Source: Bacteroidia bacterium (GTDB lineage Bacteria; Bacteroidota; Bacteroidia; M30B66). Taken from it: a DNA stretch of 64,000 bases. Under the pieces are notes generated by a model. That model ran no database searches. It had not been told where the DNA came from and worked only from the letters and a program-made list of their open reading frames with translations. Within the stretch, counting starts at the first letter, position 1, and the number at the start of each line of letters is the position of its first letter. Made by a program: the position numbers and the translations under genes. This document shows positions 3,787 through 57,793 of this stretch, piece by piece. The stretch spans positions 1-64,000 of the forward strand of contig JAGYKL010000014.1 in assembly GCA_018401705.1 (NCBI GenBank), in the 5' to 3' direction.

Positions 3787-3790
3787 ATAT

Positions 3791-5674: not shown

Positions 5675-5705
5675 AATCCCTGCAAGCATCTAACTTACAG
5701 GGATT
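5675..5705 (-). terminator. Probable terminator of tRNA-Asp
   Basis: A 12-bp stem with one mismatch (AATCCCTGCAAG at 5675-5686 against CTTACAGGGATT at 5694-5705) lies directly downstream of the tRNA on the minus strand and is followed there by a T-rich run. The same hairpin could be part of an integration site. Confidence 0.6.
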
Positions 5706-5720
5706 TCTACTTTTCAGTAG

Positions 5721-5794
5721 CGGACCGGACGGGACTCGAACCCGCGACCTCCGCCGTGACAGGGCGGCATTCTAACCAACTGAACTACCGATCC
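5721..5794 (-). tRNA. tRNA-Asp (GTC)
   Basis: 74 nt on the minus strand. The acceptor stem GGATCGG pairs with CCGGTCC with one G-T pair, the anticodon arm CCGCC-CTGTCAC-GGCGG shows anticodon GTC, and the T arm contains GGTTCGAGTCC. The discriminator base is G; the 3' CCA is not encoded. The gene borders decayed accessory DNA on its 3' side, a usual arrangement for integrase-targeted tRNA genes. Confidence 0.96.
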
Positions 5795-6013
5795 AATGGT
5801 AGTATTGTATTTACGAGAAAACAGAAAAGTTCCATCTTTCTCAATGCGGTTGGCAAAAGTAGATATTTTTTTGTTTTGTACAACATTGTTGTAAAAAAAA
5901 ATGCGGTAAATAGACTTTCTCATTGAAAACCAATGATTTTCATTTAGCAAGACCTGTGTATAAGTTTAGGATTTTAAGCAGTGTAAAAAGTTAGAACATG
6001 GTCTTTTGCTTGC

Positions 6014-6021
6014 TACTTTTG
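6014..6021 (+). promoter_or_regulatory. Candidate promoter element for thyA-folA
   Basis: TACTTTTG matches TAnnTTTG and lies 19 bases before the thyA ATG. The intervening leader is short and AT-rich. Confidence 0.5.
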
Positions 6022-6040
6022 TACCCAATAATAGTTAGAA

Positions 6041-6835
6041 ATGAAAGAGTATCACCAGCTATTAAACCACATACTAACAAATGGGGTTTACAAAGAAGAT
6101 AGAACGGGAACAGGGACGACTAGCTGTTTTGGCTATCAAATGCGATTTGATTTAGAAAAAGGTTTTCCTCTTGTAACGACTAAAAAAGTACACTTAAAGT
6201 CAATAATTCATGAATTGCTTTGGTTTTTAAAAGGAGATACAAATATTGCTTACTTAAAAGAAAATGGAGTTAGAATTTGGGATGAATGGGCTGATGAAAA
6301 TGGCAATTTAGGCCCTGTATATGGTCATCAATGGCGTTCATGGCCAAGCCCCGAAGGTGGGACCATAGATCAAATCAGCAATCTTATTGCAATGATTAAA
6401 AAGAACCCAGATTCACGTAGGTTGATTGTTAGTGCTTGGAATGTTGCCGAGGTAGAAAAAATGGCTCTTCCCCCCTGCCACAGCCTGTTCCAGTTTTATG
6501 TTTCAAACAATAAGTTGAGCTGTCAGCTTTATCAAAGAAGTGCAGATAGTTTTCTTGGAGTACCTTTTAATATTGCATCTTATGCACTTTTAACCATGAT
6601 GATCGCTCAAGTCTGCGACTTGGGATTAGGAGAGTTTGTACACACATTTGGTGATGCACATATTTATTCGAATCACATGGAACAAGTTCATCTTCAGCTA
6701 AGTAGAGAACCCACAAACCTACCTACGATGAAGATAAACCCTGGAGTAAAAGATATTTTTAATTTTAAGTTTGAGGACTTCAATTTGGAGAACTACCATC
6801 CTCATCCGGCCATTAAAGGAAACGTAGCCGTATGA
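6041..6835 (+). CDS. thyA: Thymidylate synthase (ThyA)
   Basis: 264 residues, the classical length. It converts dUMP to dTMP using methylene-tetrahydrofolate, which it oxidises to dihydrofolate. Visible landmarks are RTGTGT near the N-terminus, the catalytic Cys146 in [12 protein letters not shown], the [18 protein letters not shown] phosphate/folate-binding segment and the C-terminal [10 protein letters not shown]. Its last codons overlap the folA start by 4 bases (ATGA), so the pair is translationally coupled: folA regenerates the tetrahydrofolate that ThyA consumes. Confidence 0.98.
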
Positions 6836-7323
6836 TTTCAATAGTAGTAGCAACAGGAAAGAACTCAGCAATAGGAAAAGATAATAAACTTCTCTGGCAT
6901 CTTCCGGCCGATTTGAATTATTTTAAAAATCTAACAACAGGAAAGCCCATTATTATGGGTAGGAAAACCTATGAAAGCATAGGCAGGCCACTTCCCAATA
7001 GGAGGAACATCGTTATCACCAGGAATAAAAATTTAACAATTGAGGGATGCGAGGTGGTTTCTTCGCTTACAGAGGCTTTATCCATTTGTAAAGATGCTGC
7101 TGAGATTATGATAATTGGTGGAGAAGCGATTTATAAAGAGGCAATTTCTAAAACTCAAAGAATTTATAGAACATTGGTTAATGATGCTCCTGATGCGGAT
7201 AGATTCTTTCCAGAAATTGAAAATGAAATCTGGCATCAACAATTATCTTTAAGCCACCCTGCAGACGAAAAAAACAAATACAGTTTGACTTTTGAAATGT
7301 GGGACAGGAAAGTATCTGTTTAG
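6832..7323 (+). CDS. folA: Dihydrofolate reductase
   Basis: 163 residues. It reduces dihydrofolate to tetrahydrofolate with NADPH. Seen in the sequence: [27 protein letters not shown] with the catalytic Asp27, the NADPH-binding [18 protein letters not shown], and a conserved MIIGGEAIY motif. It overlaps thyA by 4 bases. It converges on the downstream regulator gene, and the two stop codons overlap at 7320-7323, leaving no intergenic terminator. Confidence 0.97.
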
Positions 7324-8042
7324 AATATTTCAAACTTATGTCCTTCAGCTTTCATGGCCTCATACAATTGCTTGTTTAACCTATATAGCATAGGAGCTTT
7401 GCCACTTTCGTCCCATGGAGAAAGCAATTCACCTGTTTCTTCAATAACAGTTTGAGAGACAATCTTTCGTCGAAAATTTCTTTTGTCAAGAGAATGTCCT
7501 AAAGCTGCTTCATACATTTCCTGAACCTGCTTAAGGGTGAATTTTTCCGATAGCAACTCAAATCCAGCTAATTGAGAACTCATCTTCGCCAGTAATCTGC
7601 GGTTCGCAGCCTGAACGATATCATTATGATCAAAGGCCAAACTTGGAAGAGATTTTAGATCCATCCAAATAATCTCTGATTCATCTTCTCCAGCTTTAAG
7701 TGTGCAATCAAGCATATTAAGAAAACTATAATAACCAATGCTAATCACTCTGCCAAGTGGATGTCTTGAAGTATCAGCGAAAGCTCTAATTTGCTTTTTG
7801 TAGAATTTTTCAGTGCCACTAACCTGTTCAATGATTGAGTCGACTCGTTTCTCAATAGAATCGTTAGGATAAACCATACCTGCAGGCAAGGCATATTGAT
7901 CCTTATATGGCTCTCTATTTCTTTTGACAAGAAGCACTTTCATGCTTTTTCCTTCAAGCCCAAAAATCACACAAGTCACTGAAAATGCCGAACGAAAATA
8001 ATAGTTCAAATCTTCTTTAGGCGACAAAGCTGAATTATGCAT
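7320..8042 (-). CDS. NrtR-type transcriptional regulator (Nudix-like domain plus winged helix)
   Basis: 240 residues. Residues ~15-150 form a Nudix-fold domain (VTCVIFGLEG, KVLLVKRNREPY, YALPAGMVYPNDS) and residues ~160-230 a winged helix (FTLKQVQEMYEAAL, RNFRRKIV). In this family the Nudix domain has become a ligand sensor, for example for ADP-ribose or sugars. The Nudix box here lacks the RExxEE catalytic core (it reads SIEKRVDSIIEQVSG), which supports a regulatory rather than hydrolytic role. The effector and target genes are not evident. It stands alone, convergent with folA. Confidence 0.8.
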   Translation of the reverse strand: MHNSALSPKEDLNYYFRSAFSVTCVIFGLEGKSMKVLLVKRNREPYKDQYALPAGMVYPNDSIEKRVDSIIEQVSGTEKFYKKQIRAFADTSRHPLGRVISIGYYSFLNMLDCTLKAGEDESEIIWMDLKSLPSLAFDHNDIVQAANRRLLAKMSSQLAGFELLSEKFTLKQVQEMYEAALGHSLDKRNFRRKIVSQTVIEETGELLSPWDESGKAPMLYRLNKQLYEAMKAEGHKFEIF

Positions 8043-8071
8043 TTCTATAAATTAGATCATTATTATTAATG

Positions 8072-8079
8072 CAAAGATA
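8072..8079 (-). promoter_or_regulatory. Candidate promoter element of the NrtR-type gene
   Basis: On the minus strand TATCTTTG fits TAnnTTTG and lies 29 bases before the ATG at 8042. Confidence 0.4.
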
Positions 8080-8162
8080 ATTCAATTTATTTTTCTATTT
8101 CATTAAACAATAATCAACAAATTATAACTACCGAAACAGATTATGCAATTTGTTAGTAAAAT

Positions 8163-8732
8163 CTAAATACTAAAATTAGCTTTGAATATTTTAACAGCTA
8201 TTGCCAAAAGGATCACACCAAAAAATTTACGAATCACGAATAGCCCACTCTTCCCAAGTTTATGTTCAATAAACTTGAGAGATTTCAGAACTATATAAAC
8301 AGCAATAAGATTAATTATTATTCCGATCAGAATGTTGTAAACACCATAATTGGCTCTCAAAGACATAACTGTAGTCAAGGTTCCAGAGCCAGCAATTATA
8401 GGGAAAGCTATTGGAATTACAGAACCTGAACTAACGTCAGGATCTGGCCGAAAGAGCTCGATTCCTAAAACCATTTCAAGACCCATTATAAAGATAACGA
8501 TTGAACCTGCTACGGCGAATGAAGAGATATCAACTCCAAGAGCTGCAAGCAAATCAGCTCCAAATACTAAAAAAAGTATCATTAACAGTCCAGAAGCTAA
8601 TGTGGCTTTTCCTGATTCTATCTCACCTATTTTGCTCTTCATGCTTAAAAGCACTGGAACAGCGCCAACAATATCAATAATAGCAAATAGAGTAAGGGTT
8701 ACTGTTAATATTTCATCTAAGCTAAGAAGCAT
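8163..8732 (-). CDS. MarC-family integral membrane protein
   Basis: 189 residues, almost wholly hydrophobic with about six membrane segments, the family's usual size and topology. Family features seen: LFAIIDIVGAVPVLLSM at the N-terminus, FIMGLEMVLGIELF in the middle and PIAFPIIAGSGTLTTVMSLR. The physiological role of MarC proteins is not settled; a link to multiple antibiotic resistance has been withdrawn in E. coli. It lies 33 bases after the glycosyltransferase gene on the same strand but has its own promoter-like element and a palindrome directly before the ATG. Confidence 0.9.
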   Translation of the reverse strand: MLLSLDEILTVTLTLFAIIDIVGAVPVLLSMKSKIGEIESGKATLASGLLMILFLVFGADLLAALGVDISSFAVAGSIVIFIMGLEMVLGIELFRPDPDVSSGSVIPIAFPIIAGSGTLTTVMSLRANYGVYNILIGIIINLIAVYIVLKSLKFIEHKLGKSGLFVIRKFFGVILLAIAVKIFKANFSI

Positions 8733-8734
8733 AT

Positions 8735-8748
8735 CCCCAAATTTGGGG
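8735..8748. promoter_or_regulatory. Perfect 14-bp palindrome before marC-like gene
   Basis: CCCCAAATTTGGGG is fully self-complementary. It lies between a TAnnTTTG-like element and the start codon at 8732, where a repressor would block early transcription. Protein partner unknown. Confidence 0.45.
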
Positions 8749-8756
8749 CAAAGCTA
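8749..8756 (-). promoter_or_regulatory. Candidate promoter element of the marC-like gene
   Basis: On the minus strand TAGCTTTG fits TAnnTTTG, adjacent to the palindrome and 16 bases before the start codon. Confidence 0.4.
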
Positions 8757-8765
8757 CCAATAACA

Positions 8766-9782
8766 TCAAGAAATATCCAGATCTGAGAACTTTTTCTTGC
8801 CTCTTAAAAAGTAATCTGCGACAATTGATCCCATGTAAACGCCACTTGTATTTCTTATGCTTTCAACCTTTTTAAGTTTCCTCCTCTTTTGCCTAATTGA
8901 TGGCAGAAGTCTATAAAAATGTAAATGCGCTCTTAGAATAGCATAGAAGTGGCTAAATCCATTGGTAAAAAGAAATTTAAATGCGGCAACACCATCTAAC
9001 AACATCCTTTTTAACAAGCTCCTTATCAAATACTTATCCTCAATATTCTTATAAATCAATTCTAAATTATTTCTAAAATTAAGATAGGTCTTCCTCCAGT
9101 TTGATTTGGACAATGTTCCGCCACCAATATGGAAAACAACAGATTCGGGTTGTACCAAAATTTTATATCCACGATTTTTCATGCGCCAGCATAAATCTAT
9201 TTCTTCCATATGCGCAAAAAAGCTTTCATCGAATCCTTGGCAATCATGAAAAACGCTTGATCGAATAAACATACAAGCACCTGATGCCCAGAAAACCTCT
9301 CGAATATCGTCGTACTGACCTGTGTCAATTTCTGTTTCTTCAAAAATTCTTCCACGACAAAAAGGATAGCCCATTCGGTCGAGATAACCTCCTGCAGCAC
9401 CTGCATATTCGAATCTGTCTCTTTGCTTAAATGCCCTTATCTTTGGCTGAATAGCAGCTATCTGAGAATCTGAATCAAATAGTTTCTCAATTGGCTTTAT
9501 CCAATTTTCGGTAACTTCAATATCAGAGTTTAAAAGCACATAAAATTCTGCATCCACTTGCCTAAGGGCTTCATTATAACCGCCAGCATAGCCATTATTA
9601 GTAGGATTAACGATCAGCTGCACTTGTGGGAAGTTCTCCTGAAGCCATTTTACAGAGTTGTCAGTAGAATTATTGTCAGCGACAACAACCTTAGCATCTT
9701 CGGAGAACTGAATGACTTTAGGTAAAAATTGCTCTAAGAGGTGACATCCATTCCAATTTAATATAACGATAGCAGTTCTCAT
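8766..9782 (-). CDS. Family 2 glycosyltransferase
   Basis: 338 residues. The GT-A fold occupies the first ~250: TAIVILNWNG, VVADNNSTDNSVKWL, FYVLLNSDIEV (the metal/nucleotide-binding Asp) and ASGACMFIRSSVF followed by GFDESFFAHMEEIDLCWRM. This subgroup resembles rhamnosyl- or other deoxyhexose transferases that act on polysaccharides. The C-terminal ~90 residues are basic and could touch the membrane. It overlaps the LpxL-like gene by 4 bases, so the two are co-translated; together they point to cell-envelope glycolipid or lipopolysaccharide assembly. The donor sugar cannot be read from sequence. Confidence 0.88.
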   Translation of the reverse strand: MRTAIVILNWNGCHLLEQFLPKVIQFSEDAKVVVADNNSTDNSVKWLQENFPQVQLIVNPTNNGYAGGYNEALRQVDAEFYVLLNSDIEVTENWIKPIEKLFDSDSQIAAIQPKIRAFKQRDRFEYAGAAGGYLDRMGYPFCRGRIFEETEIDTGQYDDIREVFWASGACMFIRSSVFHDCQGFDESFFAHMEEIDLCWRMKNRGYKILVQPESVVFHIGGGTLSKSNWRKTYLNFRNNLELIYKNIEDKYLIRSLLKRMLLDGVAAFKFLFTNGFSHFYAILRAHLHFYRLLPSIRQKRRKLKKVESIRNTSGVYMGSIVADYFLRGKKKFSDLDIS

Positions 9783-10570
9783 TCAAGACGTTTATGTTTC
9801 CATCTTTTATGAGACCAAAGCCAAGCTGGAGGATATTCCATGATTAATTTTTCTAATGCTTTTGCATGAAGCCGAGTTATTTCGCCATCACTGCTTTCAG
9901 CAGGATTCTCGTGCAATATCTCAAATTCTACTGAATAATGCCCTCGTTTTTCTCTTCGCATAGCCAAGAAAACAAGTGGATTATTCTTAGCCTTAGCAAT
10001 TCTTTCAGGCCCGGTAAAGCAAGGAGTGTCTTGATTTAGAAAAAGTAGCCAGTTTGCATGTCTAGGGTCAGGCGCCTGATCTGCTACAAGTAATGTTGCC
10101 AAAGGCTCTTTCGATTGCATAACAGATCTATAGGTATTATTCATTGTTACAAGCTCGGTACCGAGCGATTCTCTGACATTCTTCATAACCTTATCCATGA
10201 GCTTACTACTTAATGGTTTGTAGGTTACCATACTTTTCATATTAAATAGTCCAGCCATTGAAACTCCCAGCCATTCCCAATTATTGTAATGACCTGAAAC
10301 AGCTATAAAACCTTCATTATTTTCCTTTAGTCTATCAAGTACTTCAGGATTTTTCAAATACACTCTTTTAAGAAGTAATTTTTTATTTAGAAGGTATTTC
10401 AGGAGACAGGAAAAAGAGTTTCTGTAAAAATTCTTGGTAATTTGTTTGTATATTTTTCGGACTTTGGGAAAAGCATTTTTTAGATTTTCCAAAATAACAT
10501 CCTTTCTATAAGCTATAATATTATTGGCAAACCAAGCTAAAAAGTCTGAAAGACTATATAGTATTCTCAA
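9779..10570 (-). CDS. LpxL/HtrB-like lysophospholipid (lipid A) acyltransferase; 5' end frameshifted
   Basis: 263 residues from a TTG at 10570. The acyltransferase motif SGHYNNWEW and later LVADQAPDPRHANWLLFLNQ with GPERIAKA match the LpxL/HtrB family, which transfers an acyl chain to lipid A at the inner membrane. The family normally has an N-terminal anchor of about 20-30 more residues. Those are still readable upstream of the TTG (RRRFLLAQVPLRILYSLSDF), but no start codon exists in that frame, while an ATG at 10661, just after the preceding gene, is in another frame. The true gene is therefore probably 9779-10661 with an indel near 10.6 kb. Its 3' end is coupled to the GT2 gene. Confidence 0.82.
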   Translation of the reverse strand: MRILYSLSDFLAWFANNIIAYRKDVILENLKNAFPKVRKIYKQITKNFYRNSFSCLLKYLLNKKLLLKRVYLKNPEVLDRLKENNEGFIAVSGHYNNWEWLGVSMAGLFNMKSMVTYKPLSSKLMDKVMKNVRESLGTELVTMNNTYRSVMQSKEPLATLLVADQAPDPRHANWLLFLNQDTPCFTGPERIAKAKNNPLVFLAMRREKRGHYSVEFEILHENPAESSDGEITRLHAKALEKLIMEYPPAWLWSHKRWKHKRLE

Positions 10571-10681
10571 AGGAACTTGAGCAAGCAGAAACCTCCGCCT
10601 CGAATAAGGTAATACAGAATAACTGTCTTGAGTATCGAATTTTGTTGGATTTGGCGTTCATGATGAGGGAGTAACTCTATC

Positions 10682-12085
10682 CTATTTAATATCATTTGTT
10701 TGTGTGTCTCTCTTCAGAATAAGAAACTGCCATTGGTCATTCATTATTTCACCAAGAGCATCTGAATGAATAAGGGTATAATCATTTGTGACTAAGTCTA
10801 AGAGAATACGAAACGTCTATTGCTTTGATTGTTAATTTTATAGTACTGCCATTTCATAGGGATATGCAGAAGGCTCATATGTACTGGGATAGTTCTATTA
10901 TCGGGTGGACCATACTGTAGGTAAACTCTACCTCTATCAGTATTATATCCTCGTTTTATGGATGAGGCGAATTCTGTTTGCACCTTAATAACTTCTGAAC
11001 GATATTTCTCCCAAGCTTCTTTGAGGATTTGCCGATGAGCGATTTAACTAAAAAGACAAGAAGTACTGTTTCATGAGTTCAAAATCTCCCTCTTTAATTA
11101 CATTCTCTGAATACTGTTTTTCTCTTTCTGCTGATATTGGTCTTAAAGCTCTGATATGTTCGGTAAGGCTATCTTTGTTCTTATATCCTTGGGTAAAGGT
11201 CCCTTCGGTGACCAAAAGGTCAATGTTGTTTAAGTTGACTGCCAACCCTGGATTAGCGCGAATAAATTCTTGAGACTTAGTACCAAGTAAATTGTTTTCT
11301 CGGTCTCTAGCCTCAATAACAAGTCTGTAAGCTCCGTTTGGCAACTCAGAAATATCTATTTCTTTCATGAAGACATTTACCATTGCGGAGTTAGCCTTCT
11401 CGAATCCGGTAAATTGTGCTATCGTTCTAAACGAATTGAGTTCCTCAATATGAAACTTAATTAAGTACTTTTCTCCTTCTCCTAATACACCGAGGGAGTT
11501 ATACGACTCGTTATAAAAAATAAGTTTGTTCTCATCACTGCCAAAAAACTCGCTAATATGAGGAACCAAATCATATCCTCCTTTAGACAAAGGTCCTGGT
11601 TTAATGGTTTTTGTATAAGATTCAACCAACTGAATATCAGAAAGCCAAACTGAGTCGGTAGGGATATCTATAATTAATTCTGAAGTAGCCTTTACCGGCT
11701 CTGCATTGGTAAGCACATCTCTAACTTCTAAACCAAGCTCATAACTACCTTCAGACAAGGGAATTCTTTGCTGATCGATAAAATTAAATCCGATATTTAA
11801 TGAATCATCAGCCTCTGGGCTGGAAAGAATATATTTATCGGCATATCTTATTTTATCACCTTGTGAAGCTATGAGGGTAACCTCAACTTTACCTTGATAC
11901 TTTCCTGATTCATTCTTTATAAAGTTTACACTTGAACCTCTAACCATTAGGTAAGTTTCTACATAAGGTGTTTTTCCACCCATTAAAAACACACCTCTGG
12001 AAAAAAGAGCTTGCACTTGCTGTGCAGAAACCTGACAGAAAGGATTTAATAATAAAATGCTTAAAGCTGCAAAGAATTTAACCAT
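10682..12085 (-). pseudogene. GWxTD-domain protein, interrupted by nonsense and frameshift changes
   Basis: The intact first part (11048-12085, 345 residues) has a signal peptide ending in VSAQQ, followed by beta-rich extracellular-type domains. The family's C-terminal GWxTD domain follows but is broken. A stop (TAG at 11048-11050) stands where the context YFLSF-x-LNRSSANP suggests Trp; one extra A is needed near 11020 to read EAWEKYRSEV; then RGYNTDRGRVYLQYGPPDN is intact. Two single-base losses near 10.87 kb garble the expected YPYEMWQYY, and a last shift near 10800 separates FVF from LDLVTNDYTLIHSDALGEI. With these repaired, the frame ends at 10682, 21 bases before the acyltransferase ATG. 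GWxTD proteins are envelope proteins of unclear function in Bacteroidota. Confidence 0.75.
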
Positions 12086-37420: not shown

Positions 37421-39349
37421 ATGAAAAAGTTATTCCTTGTTATTATTGTATTTATTCAGGTATTAAATTCTCAAGCTCAAACTGACTACAATAGTGATTC
37501 ATTGTGGAATATTTGGCAGGATAAAAGCCAACAGGATTCGACGCGCTCAATGTCGCTGCTGCTTTATACAGCTAACGAATATCTATTCTCTGATCCTGAC
37601 TCCGCATTAATCTTTTTAGACATGGTCGAAGATTTATCTGAGGATATTTCTTTTGACAGAGGTTTATCACGTTCATTAAAATACAAAGGTGTAGCATACT
37701 TTATTCTAAGCGATTACTCTAAGGCACTGGATTATAGCCTTCAGGCTTACAAGATTTTTGAAAAACATAATGAAGAAAGAGAAATGGCATCTGTATCTTC
37801 TAACATAGGAGCTATGTATGCCACAACAGGTTTACGGATAAAAGCACTCGAAGCTTTTGAAAAAAGCCTAAAATTATCGCAAGCCATAAACTCAGCTGAT
37901 GGTATTGCAACAGCTTCTGACAATATAGCCTCACTTTATTTTCAACAAGGCAATTATGAAGCGGCTTTAAAGGGATATCAGCAAGCTTATGAAGTTTACA
38001 AAGATGACCCTGAAAGTCAAAATGTTGCAGTAACACTTAACAATATAGCAAATGTTTATTCTCAACAAGAGAACTATGCTGATGCAATAACTTATTATAA
38101 AAACAGTATCGAGTTGCACACAAAAAACCAAGATTTAAGAGGATTAATTTATCCTTTAAGAGGCTTAGGTGTAGCATACCAAGGTGAAGGCAAATTTGAG
38201 GATGCCTTATTTTACCTTAAACGAAGTTTAGAAGTAAGTGAAGAAGTTAAATATCAGAATGGAGTAAGCGTAGCACTGCATGATATAGGTGCGTTATATT
38301 ATGATCAAAAAAAATTCAAAGATGCAATCAACTACTGTCACAAAGCTTACAAGCTTTCTCAAGAAATAGGAGACTTGAATAATGAGTCAAGTTCTTGCGA
38401 CTGTTTATATAAATCATATAAAGGAGATGGCAATGCAACTAAAGCCCTTGAATATCATGAAAAGCATTCGATACTACTTGATTCAATAAATGAAAACTCA
38501 ACTGCAATGAAATTACAGGAAGTTGAATTTTCAAAAGAAATCTATGCCGATAGCTTGTCTTATGCCAAGAAAGAAGCTATAAAGGATATTGAGATTTTAA
38601 AACAAGGTGCTGAACTTTCCAAGCAAAGAGTTGCACTTGGAGCTACTGGCGGCGGCATAATATTGCTTATATCGCTGATTTATTCTGTAAGAAAAGGCAA
38701 GAAACGCTCTGATGAATTGCTTCATAATATTCTTCCTGAAGAGGTTGCCACTGAACTCAAGCAAAATGGAAAAGTAGGTTCTAAACGAATAGACCATGTA
38801 ACAGTACTTTTCACTGATTTTAAAGGGTTTACTGCTATGGCCGAAAATATGAGTGCCAATGATTTAGTAGAAGATCTAAATGTTTGTTTCTCTGAATTTG
38901 ATAGAATTATGGAAAAATATGGAATTGAGAAAATCAAGACCATTGGAGATTCATACATGGCAGCAGGGGGCTTACCTGTTCCTAACTCGACTCATGCAAT
39001 GGATGTAGTAAATGCTGCCTTTGAATTGGTCGAATTTGTCAGATTAGGAAAAGAAAAGAAAATAGCTAGTAACCAGCCTTTCTTTGAAATACGTGTAGGA
39101 GTGCATACAGGTCCTGTTGTTGCAGGAATTGTTGGAGTTAAAAAATTCCAATATGACATTTGGGGTGACACTGTTAACACAGCCAGTCGTATGGAATCTT
39201 CAGGCGAGGTTGGAAAAGTAAACATTAGCCAAACTACATACGAGCTTATAAATGAGTCGCCCAATCTAGTTTTTGAAAACAGAGGTGAGATTCAAGCTAA
39301 AGGAAAAGGTGAAATGCAAATGTATTTTGTAGAGAAGAAAAGCGCTTAA
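37421..39349 (+). CDS. Class III adenylate/guanylate cyclase with extracytoplasmic TPR sensor
   Basis: 642 residues. A signal peptide (KLFLVIIVFIQVLNSQAQ) is followed by about seven TPR repeats (~70-340; for example NNIANVYSQQENYADAITYY), a short coiled coil, one transmembrane helix (~405-422, GGGIILLISLIYSV) and a class III cyclase domain (~455-640). Metal-binding Asp residues are in VLFTDFKGF (~466) and IGDSYMA (~510); the transition-state Asn/Arg lie in DTVNTASRME. The layout places TPRs in the periplasm and the cyclase in the cytoplasm, making cyclic nucleotide in response to a signal. Base specificity (ATP or GTP) is not resolved. Confidence 0.88.
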   Translation: MKKLFLVIIVFIQVLNSQAQTDYNSDSLWNIWQDKSQQDSTRSMSLLLYTANEYLFSDPDSALIFLDMVEDLSEDISFDRGLSRSLKYKGVAYFILSDYSKALDYSLQAYKIFEKHNEEREMASVSSNIGAMYATTGLRIKALEAFEKSLKLSQAINSADGIATASDNIASLYFQQGNYEAALKGYQQAYEVYKDDPESQNVAVTLNNIANVYSQQENYADAITYYKNSIELHTKNQDLRGLIYPLRGLGVAYQGEGKFEDALFYLKRSLEVSEEVKYQNGVSVALHDIGALYYDQKKFKDAINYCHKAYKLSQEIGDLNNESSSCDCLYKSYKGDGNATKALEYHEKHSILLDSINENSTAMKLQEVEFSKEIYADSLSYAKKEAIKDIEILKQGAELSKQRVALGATGGGIILLISLIYSVRKGKKRSDELLHNILPEEVATELKQNGKVGSKRIDHVTVLFTDFKGFTAMAENMSANDLVEDLNVCFSEFDRIMEKYGIEKIKTIGDSYMAAGGLPVPNSTHAMDVVNAAFELVEFVRLGKEKKIASNQPFFEIRVGVHTGPVVAGIVGVKKFQYDIWGDTVNTASRMESSGEVGKVNISQTTYELINESPNLVFENRGEIQAKGKGEMQMYFVEKKSA

Positions 39350-39770: not shown

Positions 39771-42700
39771 ATGAAGAAAAATCTACTAAAATGGCTTTTT
39801 ACTTTATGCGTTTTCTCCCTTTTTTCGGTGCTAAATGCAGGTGAAGTTGAATCTTACGGGCCTCATGGCAAAAACCAATTCAAAGAGGCATCGGATAGAA
39901 TACTTGTTAAATTCAACTCAGGTATCAGTTTTGAAACAAAGCTCCAAATTCTGTCCAAAGAATCAAATATCCTACCTCTATCAAAAGATGATGTGTTACC
40001 AGCTCCAGATGTGAGCATTGTAAGGACTAAAAACCTCAGTGATTCTGAAAGAACAGCCTTACTTGAAAGATTGCAGCAGGTTCCTTCTGTTGAATATGCA
40101 AATCCGTTTGTTATATATAGTGACGGAACCTATCAGGGAATACAAGACCGAATTATTATCCGTCTAAAGAGTCAGAAAGACCTCATTAAGATTTCAGACA
40201 TGGCGGTGGAATTCAACTTAACTATTCAAGAAAAGAATGAATTCGACTCCTTTGTTTACGTTCTAAAAACTTCAAAACAAACAGGAGCTAATGCACTTGA
40301 AATTGCCAATAAAATTCATGAAAAAGGAGTTTTTGAGTATGCAGAACCTGACTTTTTGCTTTTGCTGAATCGTTTTTCTACAAACGACCCTTTGCTTCCT
40401 AATCAATGGTCATTAAATAATACAGGATCTTCAGCTCAGTATAATGGAACAGCTGGTGCCGATATGGATATTTTCAACGCTTGGGGGATTACAAGTGGAA
40501 GTTCAACCATTAAAGTTGCTATTATTGATGAAGGAGTTGATTTAAATCACCCTGATTTACAGGCAAATTTACTACCAGGCTATGATGCTACTGGGCTGGG
40601 AAGCAATGGCGGCCCATCTGGCGATGATGCTCATGGTACTGCATGCGCAGGGATAGTGGCAGCAGTTGGAAATAATAATTTAGGAGTTTCAGGGGTTGCC
40701 TACAATTGCAAAATTATTCCGGTGCGTATTGCCTATAGCAATACTTCTGGTAATTGGGTAACATCTAATACCTGGATTGGAAACTCTCTTAACTGGGCAT
40801 GGCAAAATGGAGAAGCGGATGTTCTTAGCAATTCTTGGGGAGGAGGTAGTTCTTCATCTACAATTAATAATGCTATAACTGGAGCCGTAAACAACGGACG
40901 AGGTGGTTTAGGCTCTCCTGTTCTATTTGCAGCGGGAAATAGCAATGGGGCTAATAGTTATCCTGCAACAGAAGTGAATACAATTTCTGTAATTGCAATG
41001 AGCATGTGCTACCAAAGAAAGAGTCCATCATCTTGTGATGGCGAAACATTCTGGGGTTCAAATTATGGTAATGGAGCTGATGTGGCAGCACCAGGAGTTA
41101 AAATTGCAACAACAGATATATCAGGTACTTCAGGTTATTCTTCAGGAGATTACACAGGGACCTTCAATGGAACTTCGAGTGCTTGCCCTAACGCAGCTGG
41201 AGTAATGGCACTAATTCTTTCAGCTAGCCCAACTCTTAGTCAAACTCAAGCAAGGTTCACTTTAGAATCTACTTGCGAAAAAGTTGGCGGATATACTTAC
41301 AACTCGAATGTATCTGGTCAACCAAACGGAACTTGGTCTAATGATTTAGGATATGGTTTGGTAAATGCTTTTCAAGCTCTTCAATCCATTACTCCTCAAG
41401 CACAAACAGATGCAGGAATTTCATTGATTAATGCTCCTGATGGTTCATATTGCATTAGCACCCTAAGCCCTTCTGTAACTTTAAAAAACTATGGAACTAA
41501 TGCTTTAACGAGTGTTATAATTAACTATCAGATTGGCAGTAATCCAGTTCAAACATATCAATGGTCCGGAAATCTTGCAAGTACGAATAGCACTGTTGTA
41601 ACACTGCCAAGTCAGAATTTCCAGAACGGTAGTTTCTCATTCTTGGCCTACACTTCGAGTCCTAATGGCACTTCTGATGAGTTGACTACAAATGACAGTA
41701 GAACTTCATCATTTACTATTGCAAATAATCCACTTACACTCACAATAGTTCTGGATAATTATCCGAGTGAAACGAGTTGGTCTATTTTGGATGGAAGTTC
41801 AAATATTGTTGCCTCTGGAGGCACATACAGTGGCAGTGCTCAAGGCTCGACGGTTATTGAGAATCTTTGCCTTTCTGATGGATGTTATACTTTTATCATG
41901 AACGATTCCTATGGCGATGGTATATGCTGCGCATATGGAAATGGAAGCTACACTTTAACTAAAGACTCTGATGGAAGTGTTCTTGCATCAGGAGGAGCAT
42001 TCACTTTCTCTGAAAGCACAGGATTCTGCGTTCAGGAATCTAGTCCTCTATCAGGAAATGTTGTTTCCACTACAAATGTTAGCTGTTTTAATGGAAATAA
42101 TGGCTCTGCTGAAGTTGAAGCTCAAGGAGGAACTTCTCCTTATTTCTACTCATGGAGCTCCGGGCAAAATACAGCTGCGGTGAGTAATCTTGCTGCAGGC
42201 ACTTACACTGTCTCAATCACAGATAATGCTGGCTCACAAGTCAACGTACAAGTAACAATTACTCAACCAAGCCTTCTATCTGCAAATGCAAGCTCACAAT
42301 CGGCAACTTGTTTTGGCAGTAGCAATGGTTCAGTTTCTTTGAGTGTTTCAGGAGGAACTGCTCCATACTCCTATAGTTGGTCAAATGGAAGTAGTTCTCA
42401 AAACTTAAATGGTGTTGGATCCGGTTCATACTCTATAGTTGTTTCCGATGCTAATGGTTGTTCTACAAATGCTTCTGCAAATGTTAGTCAGCCTGCGAAT
42501 ATATCTGCTTCAGCTTCCTCAACAGATGCTAGCTGTAACGGAGCAAACGACGGTTCTGTTTCTCTTAGTGTTTCTGGAGGAACAACCCCATATTCATATA
42601 GCTGGTCAAACGGAGCAAGTTCTCAAAACCTAAGCAATGTAGGAGGAGGTTCTTATTCTGTTGTAGTTACAGATGCAAATGGATGTAATGCTAATACTTC

Positions 42701-42995
42701 AGTAAATGTTAATACAGGAGATACACCTGTACAACCTGAACTCGCTTGCTACGAAACAGCATCGTTCAATACGACAACTTGCTCTTGGGAAGTAAGCGGA
42801 GATATGCCGGCTCAACCAGCAATTGCTTGTTATGAAACAGCATCGTTCAATACGACAACTTGTTCTTGGGAAGTAAGAGGCGATATGCCAACTCAACCGC
42901 AGATTGCTTGTTATGAAACAGCTTCTTCAATACGACAACTTGCTCTTGGGAAATGGCAGAGTATGCCCGACCAAGCCAGCAATTGCTTGTTATGA
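39771..42995 (+). CDS. Secreted S8 (subtilisin-like) serine protease, N-terminal part of a repeat-interrupted gene
   Basis: Signal peptide (LFTLCVFSLFSVLNAG), an N-terminal inhibitor-like prodomain (~40-200), then the subtilase domain with Asp253 (VAIIDEGVDLNHPDL), His288 (GDDAHGTACAG), oxyanion Asn390 (AAGNSNG) and Ser469 (FNGTSSACPNAAG): a complete triad. Next come a CARDB-like domain, a DSYGDGICCAYGNGSY domain, and three SprB-type repeats (SVSGGTAPYSYSWSNGSS). From ~residue 985 the 27-residue CYETASFN repeats begin. The frame breaks in the third repeat and stops at 42995. The C-terminal part in the same frame resumes later and ends at 47012, so I read 39771-47012 as one gene, 7242 bases or exactly 2414 codons including stop. 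Confidence 0.88.
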   Translation: MKKNLLKWLFTLCVFSLFSVLNAGEVESYGPHGKNQFKEASDRILVKFNSGISFETKLQILSKESNILPLSKDDVLPAPDVSIVRTKNLSDSERTALLERLQQVPSVEYANPFVIYSDGTYQGIQDRIIIRLKSQKDLIKISDMAVEFNLTIQEKNEFDSFVYVLKTSKQTGANALEIANKIHEKGVFEYAEPDFLLLLNRFSTNDPLLPNQWSLNNTGSSAQYNGTAGADMDIFNAWGITSGSSTIKVAIIDEGVDLNHPDLQANLLPGYDATGLGSNGGPSGDDAHGTACAGIVAAVGNNNLGVSGVAYNCKIIPVRIAYSNTSGNWVTSNTWIGNSLNWAWQNGEADVLSNSWGGGSSSSTINNAITGAVNNGRGGLGSPVLFAAGNSNGANSYPATEVNTISVIAMSMCYQRKSPSSCDGETFWGSNYGNGADVAAPGVKIATTDISGTSGYSSGDYTGTFNGTSSACPNAAGVMALILSASPTLSQTQARFTLESTCEKVGGYTYNSNVSGQPNGTWSNDLGYGLVNAFQALQSITPQAQTDAGISLINAPDGSYCISTLSPSVTLKNYGTNALTSVIINYQIGSNPVQTYQWSGNLASTNSTVVTLPSQNFQNGSFSFLAYTSSPNGTSDELTTNDSRTSSFTIANNPLTLTIVLDNYPSETSWSILDGSSNIVASGGTYSGSAQGSTVIENLCLSDGCYTFIMNDSYGDGICCAYGNGSYTLTKDSDGSVLASGGAFTFSESTGFCVQESSPLSGNVVSTTNVSCFNGNNGSAEVEAQGGTSPYFYSWSSGQNTAAVSNLAAGTYTVSITDNAGSQVNVQVTITQPSLLSANASSQSATCFGSSNGSVSLSVSGGTAPYSYSWSNGSSSQNLNGVGSGSYSIVVSDANGCSTNASANVSQPANISASASSTDASCNGANDGSVSLSVSGGTTPYSYSWSNGASSQNLSNVGGGSYSVVVTDANGCNANTSVNVNTGDTPVQPELACYETASFNTTTCSWEVSGDMPAQPAIACYETASFNTTTCSWEVRGDMPTQPQIACYETASSIRQLALGKWQSMPDQASNCLL

Positions 42996-45203
42996 AACTG
43001 CATCGTTCAATACGACAACTTGTTCTTGGGAAGTAAGAGGCGATATGCCAACTCAACCGCAGATTGCTTGTTATGAAACAGCTTCTTTCAACACAGCTTC
43101 TTGTTCTTGGGAAGTAAGTGGCGAAATGCCAGCTCAACCGCAAATTGCTTGTTATGAAACAGCATCGTTCAATACGACAACTTGTTCTTGGGAAGTGTCG
43201 GGAGAAATGCCGGCTCAACCAGCAATTGCTTGTTATGAAACAGCATCGTTCAATACGACAACTTGCTCTTGGGAAGTAAGCGGAGATATGCCGGATCAAC
43301 CAGCAATTGCTTGTTATGAAACAGCATCGTTCAATACGACAACGGGAAGTAAGCGGAGATATGCCGGATCAACCAGCAATTGCTTGTTATGAAACAGCAT
43401 CGTTCAATACGACAACTTGCTCTTGGGAAGTAAGCGGAGATATGCCGGCTCAACCAGCAATTGCTTGTTATGAAACAGCTTCTTTCAATACTATCTCTTG
43501 TTCTTGGGAAGTAAGTGGAGAAATGCCGGCTCAACCAGCAATTGCTTGCTACGAAACAGCTTCTTTCAATACTGCTTCTTGTTCTTGGGAAGTAAACGGC
43601 GATATGCCAGCTCAACCGCAGATTGCTTGCTACGAAACAGCTAACACTATCTCTTGTTCTTGGAGGTTACTGGTGAAATGCCGGCTCAGCCAGCAATTGC
43701 TTGTTATGAAACAGCTTCTTTCAATACTATCTCTTGTTCTTGGGAAGTGTCGGGAGATATGCCAGCTCAACCAGCAATTGCTTGTTATGAAACAGCATCG
43801 TTCAATACGACAACTTGCTCTTGGGAAGTGTCGGGAGAAATGCCGGCTCAACCAGCAATTGCTTGCTACGAAACAGCTTCTTTCAATACTGCTTCTTGTT
43901 CTTGGGAAGTGTCGGGAGACATGCCAGCTCAACCGCAGATTGAATGTTATGAAGTTGCGAACTTCAATACCATTTCATGTGCATGGGAAGTAAGTGGATC
44001 GGCCACTGAGCCACCGAATATAGCTTGTTATGAAACGGCTACTTTCAATTCTGAATTGTGTCAGTGGGATATTACAGGTGAAATGCCGGCTCAACCAGCA
44101 ATTGCCTGCTACGAAACAGCTTCTTTCAACACTATCTCTTGTTCTTGGGAAGTAAGCGGTGATATGCCGGCTCAACCGCAAATTGCTTGCTACGAAATAG
44201 CTTCTTTCAACACTATCTCTTGTTCTTGGGAGGTTACTGGTGAAATGCCGGCTCAACCAGCAATTGCCTGCTACGAAACGGCTACTTTCAACACAGCATC
44301 TTGCTCTTGGGAAGTTACTGGCGAAATGCCAGTTCAACCAGAACTTGCATGTTATGAAACAGCTACTTTCAACACAGCATCTTGCTCTTGGGAAGTTACT
44401 GGCGAAATGCCAGTTCAATAACTTGCATGTTATGAAGCAACTACTTTCAACACAGCATCTTGCTCTTACAGGAGTTACTGGCGAAATGCTACAGTTCAAC
44501 CTGGAGTACCTGCTACAGTAGCTTCTTTGTAACACTATCTCTTGTTCTTGGGAAGTGTCGGGAGACATGCCGGCTCAACCAGCAATTGCCTGCTACGAAA
44601 CGGCTACTTTCAACACAGCATCTTGCTCTTGGGAAGTTACTGGCGAAATGCCAGTTCAACCAAGGCTGCATGTTATGAAACGGCTGCTTTCAACACAGTA
44701 TCTTGCTCTTGGGAAGTTACTGGCGAAATGCCAGTTCAACCACTTGCATGTTATGGCGCAACTACTTTCAACACAGCATCTTGCTCTTGGGAAGTTACTG
44801 GCGAAATGCCAGTTCAACCGCAGATTGCCTGCTACGAAACAGCTTCTTTCAACACTATCTCTTGTTCTTGGGAAGTGTCGGGAACATGCCAGTTCAACCA
44901 GAACTTGCATGTTTACATAGAGCGGCTACTTTCAACACAGCATCTTGCTCTTGGGAAGTTACTGGCGAAATGCCAGTTCAACCGCAGATTGCCTGCTACG
45001 AGCAGCTTCTTCAACACTATCTCTTGTTAGGAGTGTCGGGAGACATGCCAGTTCAACCAGAACTTGCATGTTATGAAACGGCTACTTTCAACACAGCATC
45101 TTGCTCTTGGGAAGTTACTGGCGAAATGCCAGTTCAACCAGAACTTGCATGTTATGAAACAGCTACTTTCAACACAGCATCTTGCTCTTGGGATGTAAGC
45201 GGT
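42723..45203 (+). repeat. Tandem array of ~31 81-bp units encoding a 27-residue repeat
   Basis: Each unit encodes CYETA(S/T)FN-xxx-C-S-W-E-V-(S/T)-G-(D/E)-M-P-x-Q-P-x-(I/L)-A. Counting the CYE codons gives 31 units starting at 42747 and ending with the one at 45150. Nineteen of 30 spacings are exactly 81 bp. The others deviate (79, 73, 74, 78, 83, 80, 80, 78, 80, 84, 75), a net loss of 27 bp, divisible by three. An in-frame TAA appears near 44418. Units 16 and 17 (43945, 44026) are clearly diverged. The two Cys per unit could form disulfides in a surface stalk. Reverse-strand frames here are shadows. Confidence 0.92.
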
Positions 45204-47012
45204 TCCAACATTACAACTTCTATTTCGACACAAGACGTAAGCTGTAATGGCGGTAACGATGGTTCAGTTTCCTTAAGTGTCTCTGGAGGAAATGCACCTT
45301 ATTTATTTAGCTGGTCTAATGGAAGCAGTTCAGCAAATCTAAGCGGTTTGGGAGCTGGATCTTATTCTGTTGTTATTACTGATGCTAACGGTTGTTCTGC
45401 AAATGCTTCTGCAAGTGTTTCTCAGCCTGATGCAATTGCTATTTCATTAACATCTGCAAGTGTAACTTGCGATGGAAATGATGGAGGGGTTTCTTCATCT
45501 GTGAGCGGAGGAATATCTCCTTACTTATATTCTTGGTCTAACGGATCATCATCATCAAGCATAAATGGCTTGGCAGAAGGAAGCTATACCTTAACTGTAA
45601 CTGACGCGAATAATTGTGAAAGTAGCAGCTCTATTAATGTAATAACTGATTGTGATCCAGGAGGATGTACTTATGTAACCATTGACTCTAATGATTTTGA
45701 AAGTGGGTTCGGTATCTGGAATGATGGTGGAGTTGATTGCGCTAGAATAAACAATGCCACTTACGCTTCCAGCGGAAACTTCACTGTGAGATTACAAGAT
45801 GATACCGAGGAGTCTGTTGTTACAACCAACGAACTAAACCTTTTAGGCTTCACAGAACTTACAGTTGCATTTAACTATGTTCCAGTTAGCATGGATAATG
45901 CTAATGAAGATTTTTGGCTTCAAGTATCATATAACGGAGGTGCTACATTCTCAACAATTGAAGAATGGAATCTAAATGATGAATTTGTAAACAATCAAAA
46001 TTATTCTGAATCTGTAACATTCCAGGGTCCATTTAATGCCAACACAATGTTAAGATTTAGATGCGATGCATCAGGAAATGCTGACTGGGTTTATATAGAT
46101 GACATTGTAATTACAGGTTGTCAAGGTGAAATTATCCCGAGTTGCACTGATGGTGTCCAGAATGGAGATGAAACTGGCATTGACTGTGGAGGAGCTAATT
46201 GTGTTCCTTGTGCAACGGGTTGCGTTTACTCTGATATTAATTCAAATAATTTTGAAGGAGGTCTTGGTATATGGAATGATGGTGGTGGAGATGCTGCTTT
46301 AGTTTCTAACTCGAATTACGCAACTAGCGGATCTATTTCTATGCAACTCAGAGATAACTCAGGAATTCAATCTTCTATGACAACTGATGATATTGACTTA
46401 ACGGGTTATTCTGAACTAACCGTTAGCTTTAATTTTGTTACTGTTAGTTTCGAAACTAATGAGGATTTTTTCCTTGAATATTCTCTAGATGGAGGAGTTT
46501 ACTCTAATCTTGCTACTTACCAGCAAGGAAACAACACGCAAAACGGTATTGCCTACACTGATGCAGTTGTTATTCCTGGTCCTTTTACTGCTACAACATC
46601 TATCCGTTTTAGATGCGACGCATCTGGCAACAACGATTGGGTATATATTGATGATGTGGTGATTTCAGGTTGCTATAACGGAGTTGGCAACAGAGTTGCA
46701 ATTGAGAGCCCTGCTTCAACGTCTCAAACTAGTAAAAGCCTGACACGCAATGCGGCTAAGTTTGACTTTGATTTATTCCCTAATCCGGTATCTGGCTTGA
46801 TGAACGTAAGATTGATTAATTTGAATGACGTTGATTATCAAGTAAAGATTACTGATATGTCAGGCAAACTAATCGAAATCAGCAATCTTAGCATTCAGAG
46901 AAATGGAGATAGAATTACATTAGATTCTGATAAGCTTGCTTCAGGTTTATACAATATTTCAGTTCATACTCAAACTGAGGTTTTAAGTAAACGATTTATT
47001 GTTCAACATTAA
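44703..47012 (+). CDS. C-terminal part of the S8 protease gene: last repeats, SprB repeats, T9SS sorting domain
   Basis: The frame is the same as that of 39771. It is open from inside the array, first garbled, then clean from about 45036. After the last CYETATFN units come two SprB-type repeats (SVSGGNAPYLFSWSNGSS; SVSGGISPYLYSWSNGSS), two jelly-roll/MAM-like modules of similar sequence (SNDFESGFGIWNDGG and SNNFEGGLGIWNDGG, each ending WVYIDDIVI or WVYIDDVVI) separated by a Cys-rich linker CTDGVQNGDETGIDCGG, and a T9SS tail (DFDLFPNPVSGLMNVRL, LASGLYNISVHTQTEV). Not an independent gene: it has no signal peptide or start. Confidence 0.85.
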   Translation: MLLGSYWRNASSTTCMLWRNYFQHSILLLGSYWRNASSTADCLLRNSFFQHYLLFLGSVGNMPVQPELACLHRAATFNTASCSWEVTGEMPVQPQIACYEQLLQHYLLLGVSGDMPVQPELACYETATFNTASCSWEVTGEMPVQPELACYETATFNTASCSWDVSGSNITTSISTQDVSCNGGNDGSVSLSVSGGNAPYLFSWSNGSSSANLSGLGAGSYSVVITDANGCSANASASVSQPDAIAISLTSASVTCDGNDGGVSSSVSGGISPYLYSWSNGSSSSSINGLAEGSYTLTVTDANNCESSSSINVITDCDPGGCTYVTIDSNDFESGFGIWNDGGVDCARINNATYASSGNFTVRLQDDTEESVVTTNELNLLGFTELTVAFNYVPVSMDNANEDFWLQVSYNGGATFSTIEEWNLNDEFVNNQNYSESVTFQGPFNANTMLRFRCDASGNADWVYIDDIVITGCQGEIIPSCTDGVQNGDETGIDCGGANCVPCATGCVYSDINSNNFEGGLGIWNDGGGDAALVSNSNYATSGSISMQLRDNSGIQSSMTTDDIDLTGYSELTVSFNFVTVSFETNEDFFLEYSLDGGVYSNLATYQQGNNTQNGIAYTDAVVIPGPFTATTSIRFRCDASGNNDWVYIDDVVISGCYNGVGNRVAIESPASTSQTSKSLTRNAAKFDFDLFPNPVSGLMNVRLINLNDVDYQVKITDMSGKLIEISNLSIQRNGDRITLDSDKLASGLYNISVHTQTEVLSKRFIVQH

Positions 47013-49327: not shown

Positions 49328-51361
49328 TTAATCAAAAATTGGTTTGGGAAGTATTTTAATTCTGAAGATTCTATCACCCAAACTTAGTTGATGAACAACC
49401 TTCATTCCATTAACAACCTTACCAAAAGCAGTATATCTTCCATTTAGGTGAGGTGTGTTAACATGAGTTATAAACCATTGGCAACTCTCTGTGTCTTCAC
49501 CAGCACTTGCCATTCCAATAGTTCCAGCTTCAAACATGGCATCAGGTGCAAATTCTGAACGTATAGTATTCATTATACTGCCGTATCCATCGCCCCTGGG
49601 GCAACCATCTTGAATTACAAAACCGGGAACAACTCTATGAAGCCTCTTATTCACAAAAAAGCTATCCTGAATCAAAGACACAAAATTGGTCACTGTTCCT
49701 GGAGCTTTATCAACCCATAACTCAACAATAATATTTCCTCTTTCAGTTTGAATTTCAACTTGCAAATCATCGGCAATGCGACCAGCTAATTGCCAATCGA
49801 TTGGATGATTGAATTCCGGTTTTAATGGACTAGTTAAATCATTACCCATAAACTTCTGCATGGTAATGAATAAATCAGAATATGTTTCCATATCCCTCGG
49901 CAAGCGCATTCTGGACAAAACGTCCTGCAACATAGCTATATCATCTTGTTTGCTTAGACTTACATATTTTGTGGTATCTCTCATTCCAAGAGCTGCCATA
50001 GAACATAAGGCAACATCATAAGTGAGTAAAGACTTCCTCAATAATTCAGAATATGACTTCTGATTAAAACTCCTGGTATTTGGCATACTTTGAATCAAAG
50101 CATCTACACCAGCTCCCCTAACAATAATACTTTCAGTTGAAAAGGATTTATTATCTACAAAGTCAAAATTTAATTCACTTCCACATAAGGCTTTTAAAAT
50201 AAATCCTTGAGAGTATTCATCTTTAATTCTGGCATAATCCATAGCAAGCTGCTCACTAATTCTTTGAATTTCAACTTCACTCCTACTATTCCTTAAACAA
50301 GCCTCAAATAATAAATATTTAATTCGGCTATATTTCTCCGAATTAGCTGCCTTCAATAATAAATCAACATCTTTAAAACCTCTTGAATTATTTAGTAATA
50401 CAGCCATTTCCTCTCTCACATGATGCACAGAATCAGCCAAAAACGGAAATAATAAATTATAATTCAAAGAGTCAGAAAACAGTTGAAGTCCTCTTAAAAA
50501 GCCAACTTTAGCCAAATAACTTTCATGAGCTCTAAAAGTCTCAACGAGACTAAGATTTTTAGCACAAGCTCTTCCAATTAAAATTGACAAATTATATTGC
50601 AAATCTGAATTTTTGGAATTCTTAAATGCCTTTAAAAGATCTTCAACATTACTATTTAAATTCAACTTAGACCTCACCAAGGCAGCAGAAGCATAAAAGG
50701 CATTTTTCTCATCTTTATTACTTAATCCTTCTACCAAAAACTGTTTAGATTTATCTAAATCAGCACCAACAACTGAAGCGTAAAACAAGCCTTCGTAAAC
50801 ATTTGAAGATTTCGATTTACTCTCTGTGATTTTAATCAATTCATCTGTGGCACTGCTTTTCCCAGCCGCTATAATAAGCTGATGAATTACCTCATCGTTT
50901 TCTTCATTTTTCAAAAGTCTTAATAGTAAGTTTTTTAATCCTGATGTCCTGAATTGCCCTAAAGAAAAAGCAGCTGCAGCTCTTACCGTTGCTTCTTCAT
51001 CGAATTCTGCAAGTTTTAACAAAGGAGCAATGGCAGTACTATCATGAAAACTGCTAAATTCTAAAGCTGCCTGAGCACGAAGCTCTGCAGACGAATTCTC
51101 AAAGTAGGATAAAACTCCTCCCAAATCTCTTTGATCGCCAAAACTTCGAATCTGAATTAAGTCATTGTTTTCGAAACGGTTAATCTCGTTACACGAGGAA
51201 AAAAGCAGAGCTACTTGAACAAACAATAGTGCATAAACTATTTGCTTAACAATTTCTTTACACCACTTATTTTCAAAAGCATAGCGAAACCGCAACTTTC
51301 CAAGAAACTGTGGAGTTGCTTCTTTAAAAGTATTCATATTGAGGTAAACTGCAGATTTCAT
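49328..51361 (-). CDS. HEAT-repeat / cyclophilin-type peptidyl-prolyl isomerase lipoprotein
   Basis: 677 residues as drawn. A lipoprotein signal (YALLFVQVALLFSSC) lies at ~43-57, so the true start is probably later than the ATG at 51361 or uses a rare codon; no ATG/GTG is placed ideally. Residues ~75-500 are helical HEAT-like repeats (VRAAAAFSLGQFRTSGLKNLL). Residues ~530-672 form a cyclophilin: ELWVDKAPGTVTNFVSL, RLHRVVPGFVIQDGCPRGDG and QWFITHVNTPHLNGRYTAFGKV. It should fold proteins in the periplasm or on the surface, with the repeats as a binding platform. Co-transcribed with the Kazal lipoprotein. Confidence 0.85.
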   Translation of the reverse strand: MKSAVYLNMNTFKEATPQFLGKLRFRYAFENKWCKEIVKQIVYALLFVQVALLFSSCNEINRFENNDLIQIRSFGDQRDLGGVLSYFENSSAELRAQAALEFSSFHDSTAIAPLLKLAEFDEEATVRAAAAFSLGQFRTSGLKNLLLRLLKNEENDEVIHQLIIAAGKSSATDELIKITESKSKSSNVYEGLFYASVVGADLDKSKQFLVEGLSNKDEKNAFYASAALVRSKLNLNSNVEDLLKAFKNSKNSDLQYNLSILIGRACAKNLSLVETFRAHESYLAKVGFLRGLQLFSDSLNYNLLFPFLADSVHHVREEMAVLLNNSRGFKDVDLLLKAANSEKYSRIKYLLFEACLRNSRSEVEIQRISEQLAMDYARIKDEYSQGFILKALCGSELNFDFVDNKSFSTESIIVRGAGVDALIQSMPNTRSFNQKSYSELLRKSLLTYDVALCSMAALGMRDTTKYVSLSKQDDIAMLQDVLSRMRLPRDMETYSDLFITMQKFMGNDLTSPLKPEFNHPIDWQLAGRIADDLQVEIQTERGNIIVELWVDKAPGTVTNFVSLIQDSFFVNKRLHRVVPGFVIQDGCPRGDGYGSIMNTIRSEFAPDAMFEAGTIGMASAGEDTESCQWFITHVNTPHLNGRYTAFGKVVNGMKVVHQLSLGDRIFRIKILPKPIFD

Positions 51362-57108: not shown

Positions 57109-57280
57109 TATTACGTATTACGTATTGCGATGTATGTACGATTCTCGTTGTACGTTATACATTGTACGTTATACGTTGTACGTTATACGTTGTACGTTAT
57201 ACATTGTACGTTATACATTGTACGTTATACATTGTACGTTATACGTTATACGTTGTACGCTGTACGTATTACGTTGTACG
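57109..57280. repeat. Heptamer tandem array (TTGTACG / TTATACR)
   Basis: From 57148 to 57280 the sequence is exactly 19 contiguous heptamers, mostly alternating TTGTACG and TTATAC(A/G). A looser leader of TATTACG-like heptamers starts at 57109, with one 4-base irregularity at 57130-57133. Non-coding by my reading: the frames inside it are low-complexity artefacts. Confidence 0.9.
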
Positions 57281-57364: not shown

Positions 57365-57793
57365 TCAATATTCAATTTTCAAGATATTCTCTTCAATGAA
57401 CTTTTTAGAATAAGTTTTAATCATTTGTCGCACTGATCTAAACAATTCTAATTTTACTTCATGACTACCTTGAGCTTTCGCTGGATCAGGAAAATTCTGA
57501 TGAAAAGTCCTTGCTGATGAAGGAAAAACCGGGCAGCTTTCTTTAGCGCTATCACACACCGTAATTACATAATCGAATTTCAAATTGTCAAGCTCATCAA
57601 TTCGATTTGATGTATGATTTGATATATCAACACCATCTTCCTGCATCACCTTTATAGCCAAAGGATTAAGTCCGTGACTTTCTATTCCTGCGCTAAAAAT
57701 TTCGGCTTTACCATCAGAAAACATTCTCAGGTACCCTTCTGCCATTTGACTTCTGCAACTATTTCCAGTGCATAGCACTAAAATCTTTTTCAT
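57365..57793 (-). CDS. arsC: Arsenate reductase, low-molecular-weight phosphatase type
   Basis: 142 residues. The P-loop CTGNSCR (Cys8, C-x5-R) and the DPAK loop (NFPDPAKAQG) define the LMW-PTPase fold; the Cys in KESCPVFP is placed like the second redox Cys of thioredoxin-coupled ArsC. It reduces arsenate to arsenite in the cytoplasm. Downstream in a presumed unit with arsR and a DUF6428 gene, after a 158-base gap. No arsenite efflux gene (acr3, arsB) is present in the window. Confidence 0.9.
   Translation of the reverse strand: MKKILVLCTGNSCRSQMAEGYLRMFSDGKAEIFSAGIESHGLNPLAIKVMQEDGVDISNHTSNRIDELDNLKFDYVITVCDSAKESCPVFPSSARTFHQNFPDPAKAQGSHEVKLELFRSVRQMIKTYSKKFIEENILKIEY

Follow-up and report, generated by a model that had tools for sequence, protein, structure and literature searches.

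In the 64,000-nucleotide stretch of DNA analysed here (the window), a gene predicted to encode a T9SS-secreted S8 peptidase was found to carry a long tandem array of a short, Cys-containing unit. We infer, with a probability of roughly 0.6, that the units are strung as hairpin beads into an acidic stalk, which would act as a spacer between the subtilase and the surface-attachment end of the protein and the length of which would be set by the gain and loss of units. The original prediction, which had drawn attention to the array, missed both the breaks in its reading frame and the subtilase host gene, whose orthologues are without the array.

The subtilase gene and its repeat array

The host gene (39771-47012, forward strand, as are all of its features) is open from 39771 to 42995 and again from about 45033 to 47012, in one and the same frame. 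Its product begins with a signal-peptide-like N-terminus, judged by eye from the sequence (MKKNLLKWLFTLCVFSLFSVLNA; 39771-39839), followed by a subtilase catalytic domain (PF00082; 40503-41354, residues 245-528; E 7.9e-42), which at 144 bits is a member of the Peptidase_S8 family. Three stretches of SprB repeats (PF13573, assigned by Pfam; approximate limits 42042-42722) precede the array and two more follow it (45207-45647). Further downstream lie a Reelin-subrepeat-B-like beta domain (PF21471; 46368-46667; E 9.5e-9) and a T9SS type A C-terminal sorting domain (PF18962/TIGR04183; 46773-47003), the latter scoring 53.2 and 39 bits against cut-offs of 27 and 23, respectively. The source genome (3.74 Mb in 95 contigs, 98.5% complete) encodes the SprA translocon (SprA_N, PF14349; E 1e-168) and at least 150 T9SS sorting domains. 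As judged from its domains, the host protein has the layout of a T9SS cargo, its expression as a whole protein being putative. The same genome contains one DsbA-like protein, while VKOR was not found there, as well as an intact paralogue on contig 5 comprising vWA and DUF11 domains, five units and a T9SS tail.

The array itself was delineated both by TRF, which reported a period of 81 bp, 30.6 copies and 79% matches over 42744-45198, and by wrap-around alignment, which yielded 31 units at 42744-45206, the last of these being partial. The two methods thus agree that the tandem array of some 31 units described earlier is real. When translated, the unit of 27 residues reads ACYETASFNTTTCSWEVSGDMPAQPAI, together with variants, and is acidic, with a mean net charge of about -2.6. 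Throughout the clean units of the window, two Cys and one Trp occupy fixed positions; the earlier statement that each unit contains these residues holds for the 19 full clean units and fails for units bearing indels or stops. Nor are the units near-identical at the DNA level over long runs, as had been proposed, given that clean units share about 79% nucleotide identity at neighbouring lags, with just two exact repeats of more than 90 bp (maximum 119 bp). The differences among clean units are mainly synonymous (pS 0.52, pN 0.13), and purifying selection acts on these units, with a dN/dS of about 0.16.

Examination of the surroundings of the gene revealed a TPR protein with a C-terminal adenylate/guanylate cyclase domain encoded directly upstream (37421-39349, forward strand) and, on the reverse strand, a 677-residue protein with HEAT repeats and a C-terminal cyclophilin-type peptidyl-prolyl isomerase (49328-51361). 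Elsewhere in the window, an intergenic 14-bp tandem repeat (CGTTGTACGTTATA; 57146-57280; 9.6 copies, 90% matches) is situated between an ORF ending at 57104 and another at 57365-57793.

Frame breaks within the array

In the assembled sequence, the repeat is not the single open one that the original prediction implied, as no uninterrupted frame leads from the signal peptide to the sorting domain. The first break falls in unit 3 (42906-42984), after which the frame opened at 39771 ends at 42995, within the array, and three-frame translation revealed that the repeat shifts frame many times along its length. While 19 of the 31 units are clean and full, 11 (units 3, 8, 12, 21-25 and 27-29) carry indels or stops, with the densest cluster of lesions spanning units 21-29 (44347-45065), eight of these nine units being affected. 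The longest in-frame stretch comprises about nine units (43681-44421). When counted against the most favourable template assembled from clean units, the lesions of the 11 broken units amount to approximately 26 indel events and 32 substitutions. These broken units sum to a net loss of 27 nt and the frames on either side of the array therefore match, such that the open frame resuming at about 45033 is that of 39771.

It could be argued that the breaks are genuine, reflecting either a decaying pseudogene or a truncated secreted form of the peptidase without the T9SS tail. That 11 of the 31 units are broken, that the ORF beginning at 39771 ends at 42995 and that orthologues in two sister genera are without the array would be in agreement with such a scenario. 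We nonetheless consider it distinctly improbable, since about 4.8 kb of coding sequence flanking the array is open in one frame, with the breaks being confined to the array; since the clean units are under purifying selection; and since the lesions, a mixture of indels and substitutions, occur in patches between undamaged units. Assemblies of other arrays are, moreover, also broken. In the circular metagenome-assembled genome (MAG) CP058707, several arrays are in pieces with a broken frame, while in a single-contig genome (G172), an array of 103 copies carries four breaks, namely, three 1-nt deletions and one 2-nt deletion, a simple deletion type from which the lesions in the window differ. 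By contrast, in seven other genomes checked, five of which are single contigs (G485, G683, G768, G607 and G610) and two of which are drafts (G574 and G718), arrays of 5-36 units lie in one open frame per protein. Given the open flanks, the selection acting on clean units and the open arrays found elsewhere, the frame breaks seen in the assembled window are most likely, for the most part, errors of assembly or consensus. Because arrays often lie at contig ends and are broken in frame in some assemblies, many genomes probably contain truncated or wrongly annotated versions of array-bearing proteins, be they peptidases or adhesin-like.

Distribution of the unit and turnover of copies

A profile scan of genome contigs yielded 325 confirmed stretches containing the 27-residue unit, and the array, as judged by this recurrence of the same unit in other genomes, is far beyond chance. 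CYETATFN/CWETATFN repeats do, as stated earlier, occur in other Bacteroidota. The best 80 of the 325 stretches come from Flavobacteriaceae, Chitinophagaceae, Saprospiraceae, Sphingobacteriales and other Bacteroidota, together with one MAG labelled Bacteriovorax. In the array contig of this MAG (L082; JAURXW010000533.1), the N-terminal flank of the array shares about 47% identity with Bacteroidota proteins, and its presence under that label may reflect misbinning or transfer. Among 60 relatives, matches were obtained, besides the source genome itself, only in six (G003 to G008), all of the same family. In an even sample of the phylum, 10 of 395 genomes matched, as did 45 of 399 in an even sample of one family and 31 of 350 in one of its genera. 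This family is probably Flavobacteriaceae, as a Mariniflexile array is among its matches. On the strength of these matches, the repeat, of 27 or 28 residues, is widespread in Bacteroidota, being found in 9-11% of the sampled Flavobacteriaceae-like genomes.

In the relatives, the spacing of units is nearly always 27 or 28 residues and their number ranges from two to over 100 per protein, with many arrays ending at contig ends. The host proteins contain M14 peptidase, vWA/DUF11, SprB or fn3 domains and mostly end in a T9SS type A tail or a CHU_C domain. Two Saprospiraceae MAGs carry one long array each, of 113 units in one (L112) and 85 in the other (L114), and both arrays run off the contig and are broken at intervals by an insert that stretches the spacing to 96 residues.

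The homogenisation previously ascribed to the array was not apparent in the window, where units are about 79% identical, but was found in one relative. In the 103-copy array of the single-contig genome considered above (L141; G172:C1:272000-291500, locus positions 3304-11954), 98 of 100 counted 84-bp units are identical at the DNA level, reflecting extreme homogenisation. The GC content of this array at fourfold sites, based on few independent sites, is about 0.62, as compared to 0.23 in the flank. That arrays in general have elevated GC content, as foreign origin or biased conversion would produce, was, however, rejected, as fourfold-site GC across 61 loci is lower in arrays (mean 0.185) than in flanks (0.230), rendering L141 an outlier.

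The variable length proposed earlier is supported between species, with orthologues whose N-terminal flanks are 71-84% identical containing 5, 4 and 8 units. In a closer pair (L125 and L135), seven units are found in each protein, most of which match by position. Unit turnover is thus real, yet not always fast. Orthologues of the window gene in two sister genera (G003 and G006) are full-length subtilases, with open frames of 1998 and 1941 residues, that contain other repeats but not the 27-residue array. The array is therefore an accessory module of the subtilase gene.

Such variation raises the possibility that the array arose simply through DNA slippage or unequal crossing-over and persists because a linker tolerates it, with no selection on its length. 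The range from two to over 100 units, the differing numbers in orthologues and the existence of orthologous peptidases without an array would all be compatible with this explanation. On the other hand, Cys and Trp are essentially invariant across 817 distinct units, a set selected using a Cys-based pattern, and synonymous changes dominate. These two observations point to selection on the fold of the unit, from which selection on length does not follow, and we deem the by-product explanation unlikely.

Predicted fold, probable role and nearest known systems

Beyond Cys and Trp, the conserved columns of the unit correspond to F, N, G and Pro, with the remaining positions being variable. AlphaFold2 was supplied with five units of the window (43681-44085) together with 54 relatives. 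Two of the five models obtained were of high pLDDT (94.1 and 90.5), with the other three having failed (33-37), and contained one hairpin per unit, comprising strands at residues 11-15 and 20-24. In a second prediction, with a Mariniflexile protein as the lead sequence, all five models reached pLDDT values of 94.5-96.6 and presented the same strands. Structure prediction of tandem units, which had been proposed as a check, thus returned one beta-hairpin per unit in both instances. Across the two predictions, pTM was 0.57-0.67, moderate values such as would be expected of an extended chain. The predicted hairpin register is supported by the fact that F14 and W21, which face each other in this register, covary well beyond expectation, with the W/Y combination occurring in 7 of the 9 units with W14, as compared to Y21 in 11 of the 789 units with F14 (Fisher p 3e-11, a value inflated by relatedness).

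Simple hairpin geometry places Cys8 and Cys19 at opposite ends of the hairpin, an arrangement that would also suit a bond from Cys19 to the Cys8 that follows in the neighbouring unit. Such inter-unit pairing is possible given that, in most proteins, the nearest flanking Cys is 16-22 residues away. However, in about one-third of the arrays, no Cys is found within 30 residues past the last unit, which argues against pairing between neighbours. Co-loss of Cys residues offered no guide to connectivity, as internal units of the relatives practically never lose a Cys. If disulfides do form, we would slightly prefer pairing within the unit over pairing between neighbours. A bolder proposal would have this widespread, uncatalogued Bacteroidota family form a disulfide between Cys19 and the next Cys8, so that the hairpins are covalently stapled into a fibre whose length can be adjusted, a portable stalk shared by many different secreted enzymes and adhesins; it can be offered only tentatively and is more doubtful than probable.

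How, then, might the array act? Each 27-residue unit, with its two invariant Cys, its F/W cross-strand pair and its Pro-containing linkers, would fold as a beta-hairpin, and the resulting string would serve as an acidic spacer extending from the catalytic subtilase domain to the cell-surface attachment end of the T9SS-exported protein. Recombination or slippage would alter the number of units in 81-bp steps and so keep the frame, and unit number would set the reach of the enzyme, with length presumably being a selected property. In an alternative scenario, the hairpins would be adhesive modules with a surface, a glycan or another unit as their ligand, such that the number of copies would tune avidity rather than length. 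In support of adhesion, the units adjoin SprB repeats, named for a gliding adhesin, are found in CHU_C proteins and each contain aromatic residues. Yet F14 and W21, the aromatics that are invariant, form the predicted hairpin pair, conservation is otherwise limited to Cys, Gly, Asn and Pro, with the remaining positions varying, and the unit accompanies peptidases of different classes, making an adhesive role rather unlikely in our estimation. A spacer stalk is instead the simplest and most likely reading, since the conserved positions are those of the predicted fold, the units are acidic, and varied N-terminal domains are joined to T9SS tails or CHU_C. The surface stalk originally envisaged is hence favoured by its position, following enzyme or adhesin domains and preceding a T9SS sorting domain, by conservation that is structural only and by the hairpin prediction, while the role as such is putative.

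In agreement with the earlier view that no characterised family contains the repeat, no family in Pfam, NCBIfam or PHROGs covers the 27-residue unit, and searches of the PDB returned no match by sequence up to E 10 and no significant match by fold using two models. Likewise, in the open full text searched, the motif letters appeared in no paper and nothing relevant was found on 27-residue or 81-bp repeats. With no such model and no solved relative, a repeat present in about one-tenth of the sampled Flavobacteriaceae-like genomes stays unannotated, even though its short unit and invariant Cys pair make it convenient for studying how the reach of enzymes on the bacterial surface is tuned. Pfam matches of the array to Kelch_6, fn3_4 and Kelch_4 were rejected, as permuted units repeated nine times match equally strongly (for Kelch_6, E 6e-11 for the array versus down to 5e-13 in the permuted controls). 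Among 62 three-unit relatives, at most 9 are matched by any one Pfam family, and matches to PHROG head-decoration and Pfam HDPD families, being weak and limited to a minority of relatives, were also discarded.

In terms of fold, the top match of both models was the Entamoeba histolytica Gal/GalNAc lectin heavy chain (PDB 9gjb, 9gjc and 9gjf), although this match is not significant (best E 0.053, TM 0.22-0.33) and involves no sequence relation. Closer in setting is the GCTxxxACNYDPxAxxDDGSC motif of Bacteroidota proteins, a short Cys-to-Cys motif found beside or among 27-residue units in three loci (L102, L122 and L123). The ACNYDPxATxDDGSC portion resembles ACYETATFNDGTC, by eye only, whereas the Cys spacing is 13, as opposed to 11 in the 27-residue unit. 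The SprB repeat (PF13573) of the Bacteroidota gliding adhesin is likewise tandem, occurs in T9SS-exported proteins and, in the present gene, flanks the array at either end; it differs in that its profile is of 37 positions and matches neither the array nor any of the 62 three-unit relatives. Finally, and likened here by description rather than by repeat sequence, a Flavobacterium psychrophilum 'gliding motility-associated protein' is also T9SS-linked and strain-variable in repeat number, with hybrid assemblies revealing 35-88 repeat units between strains (PMC8400371).
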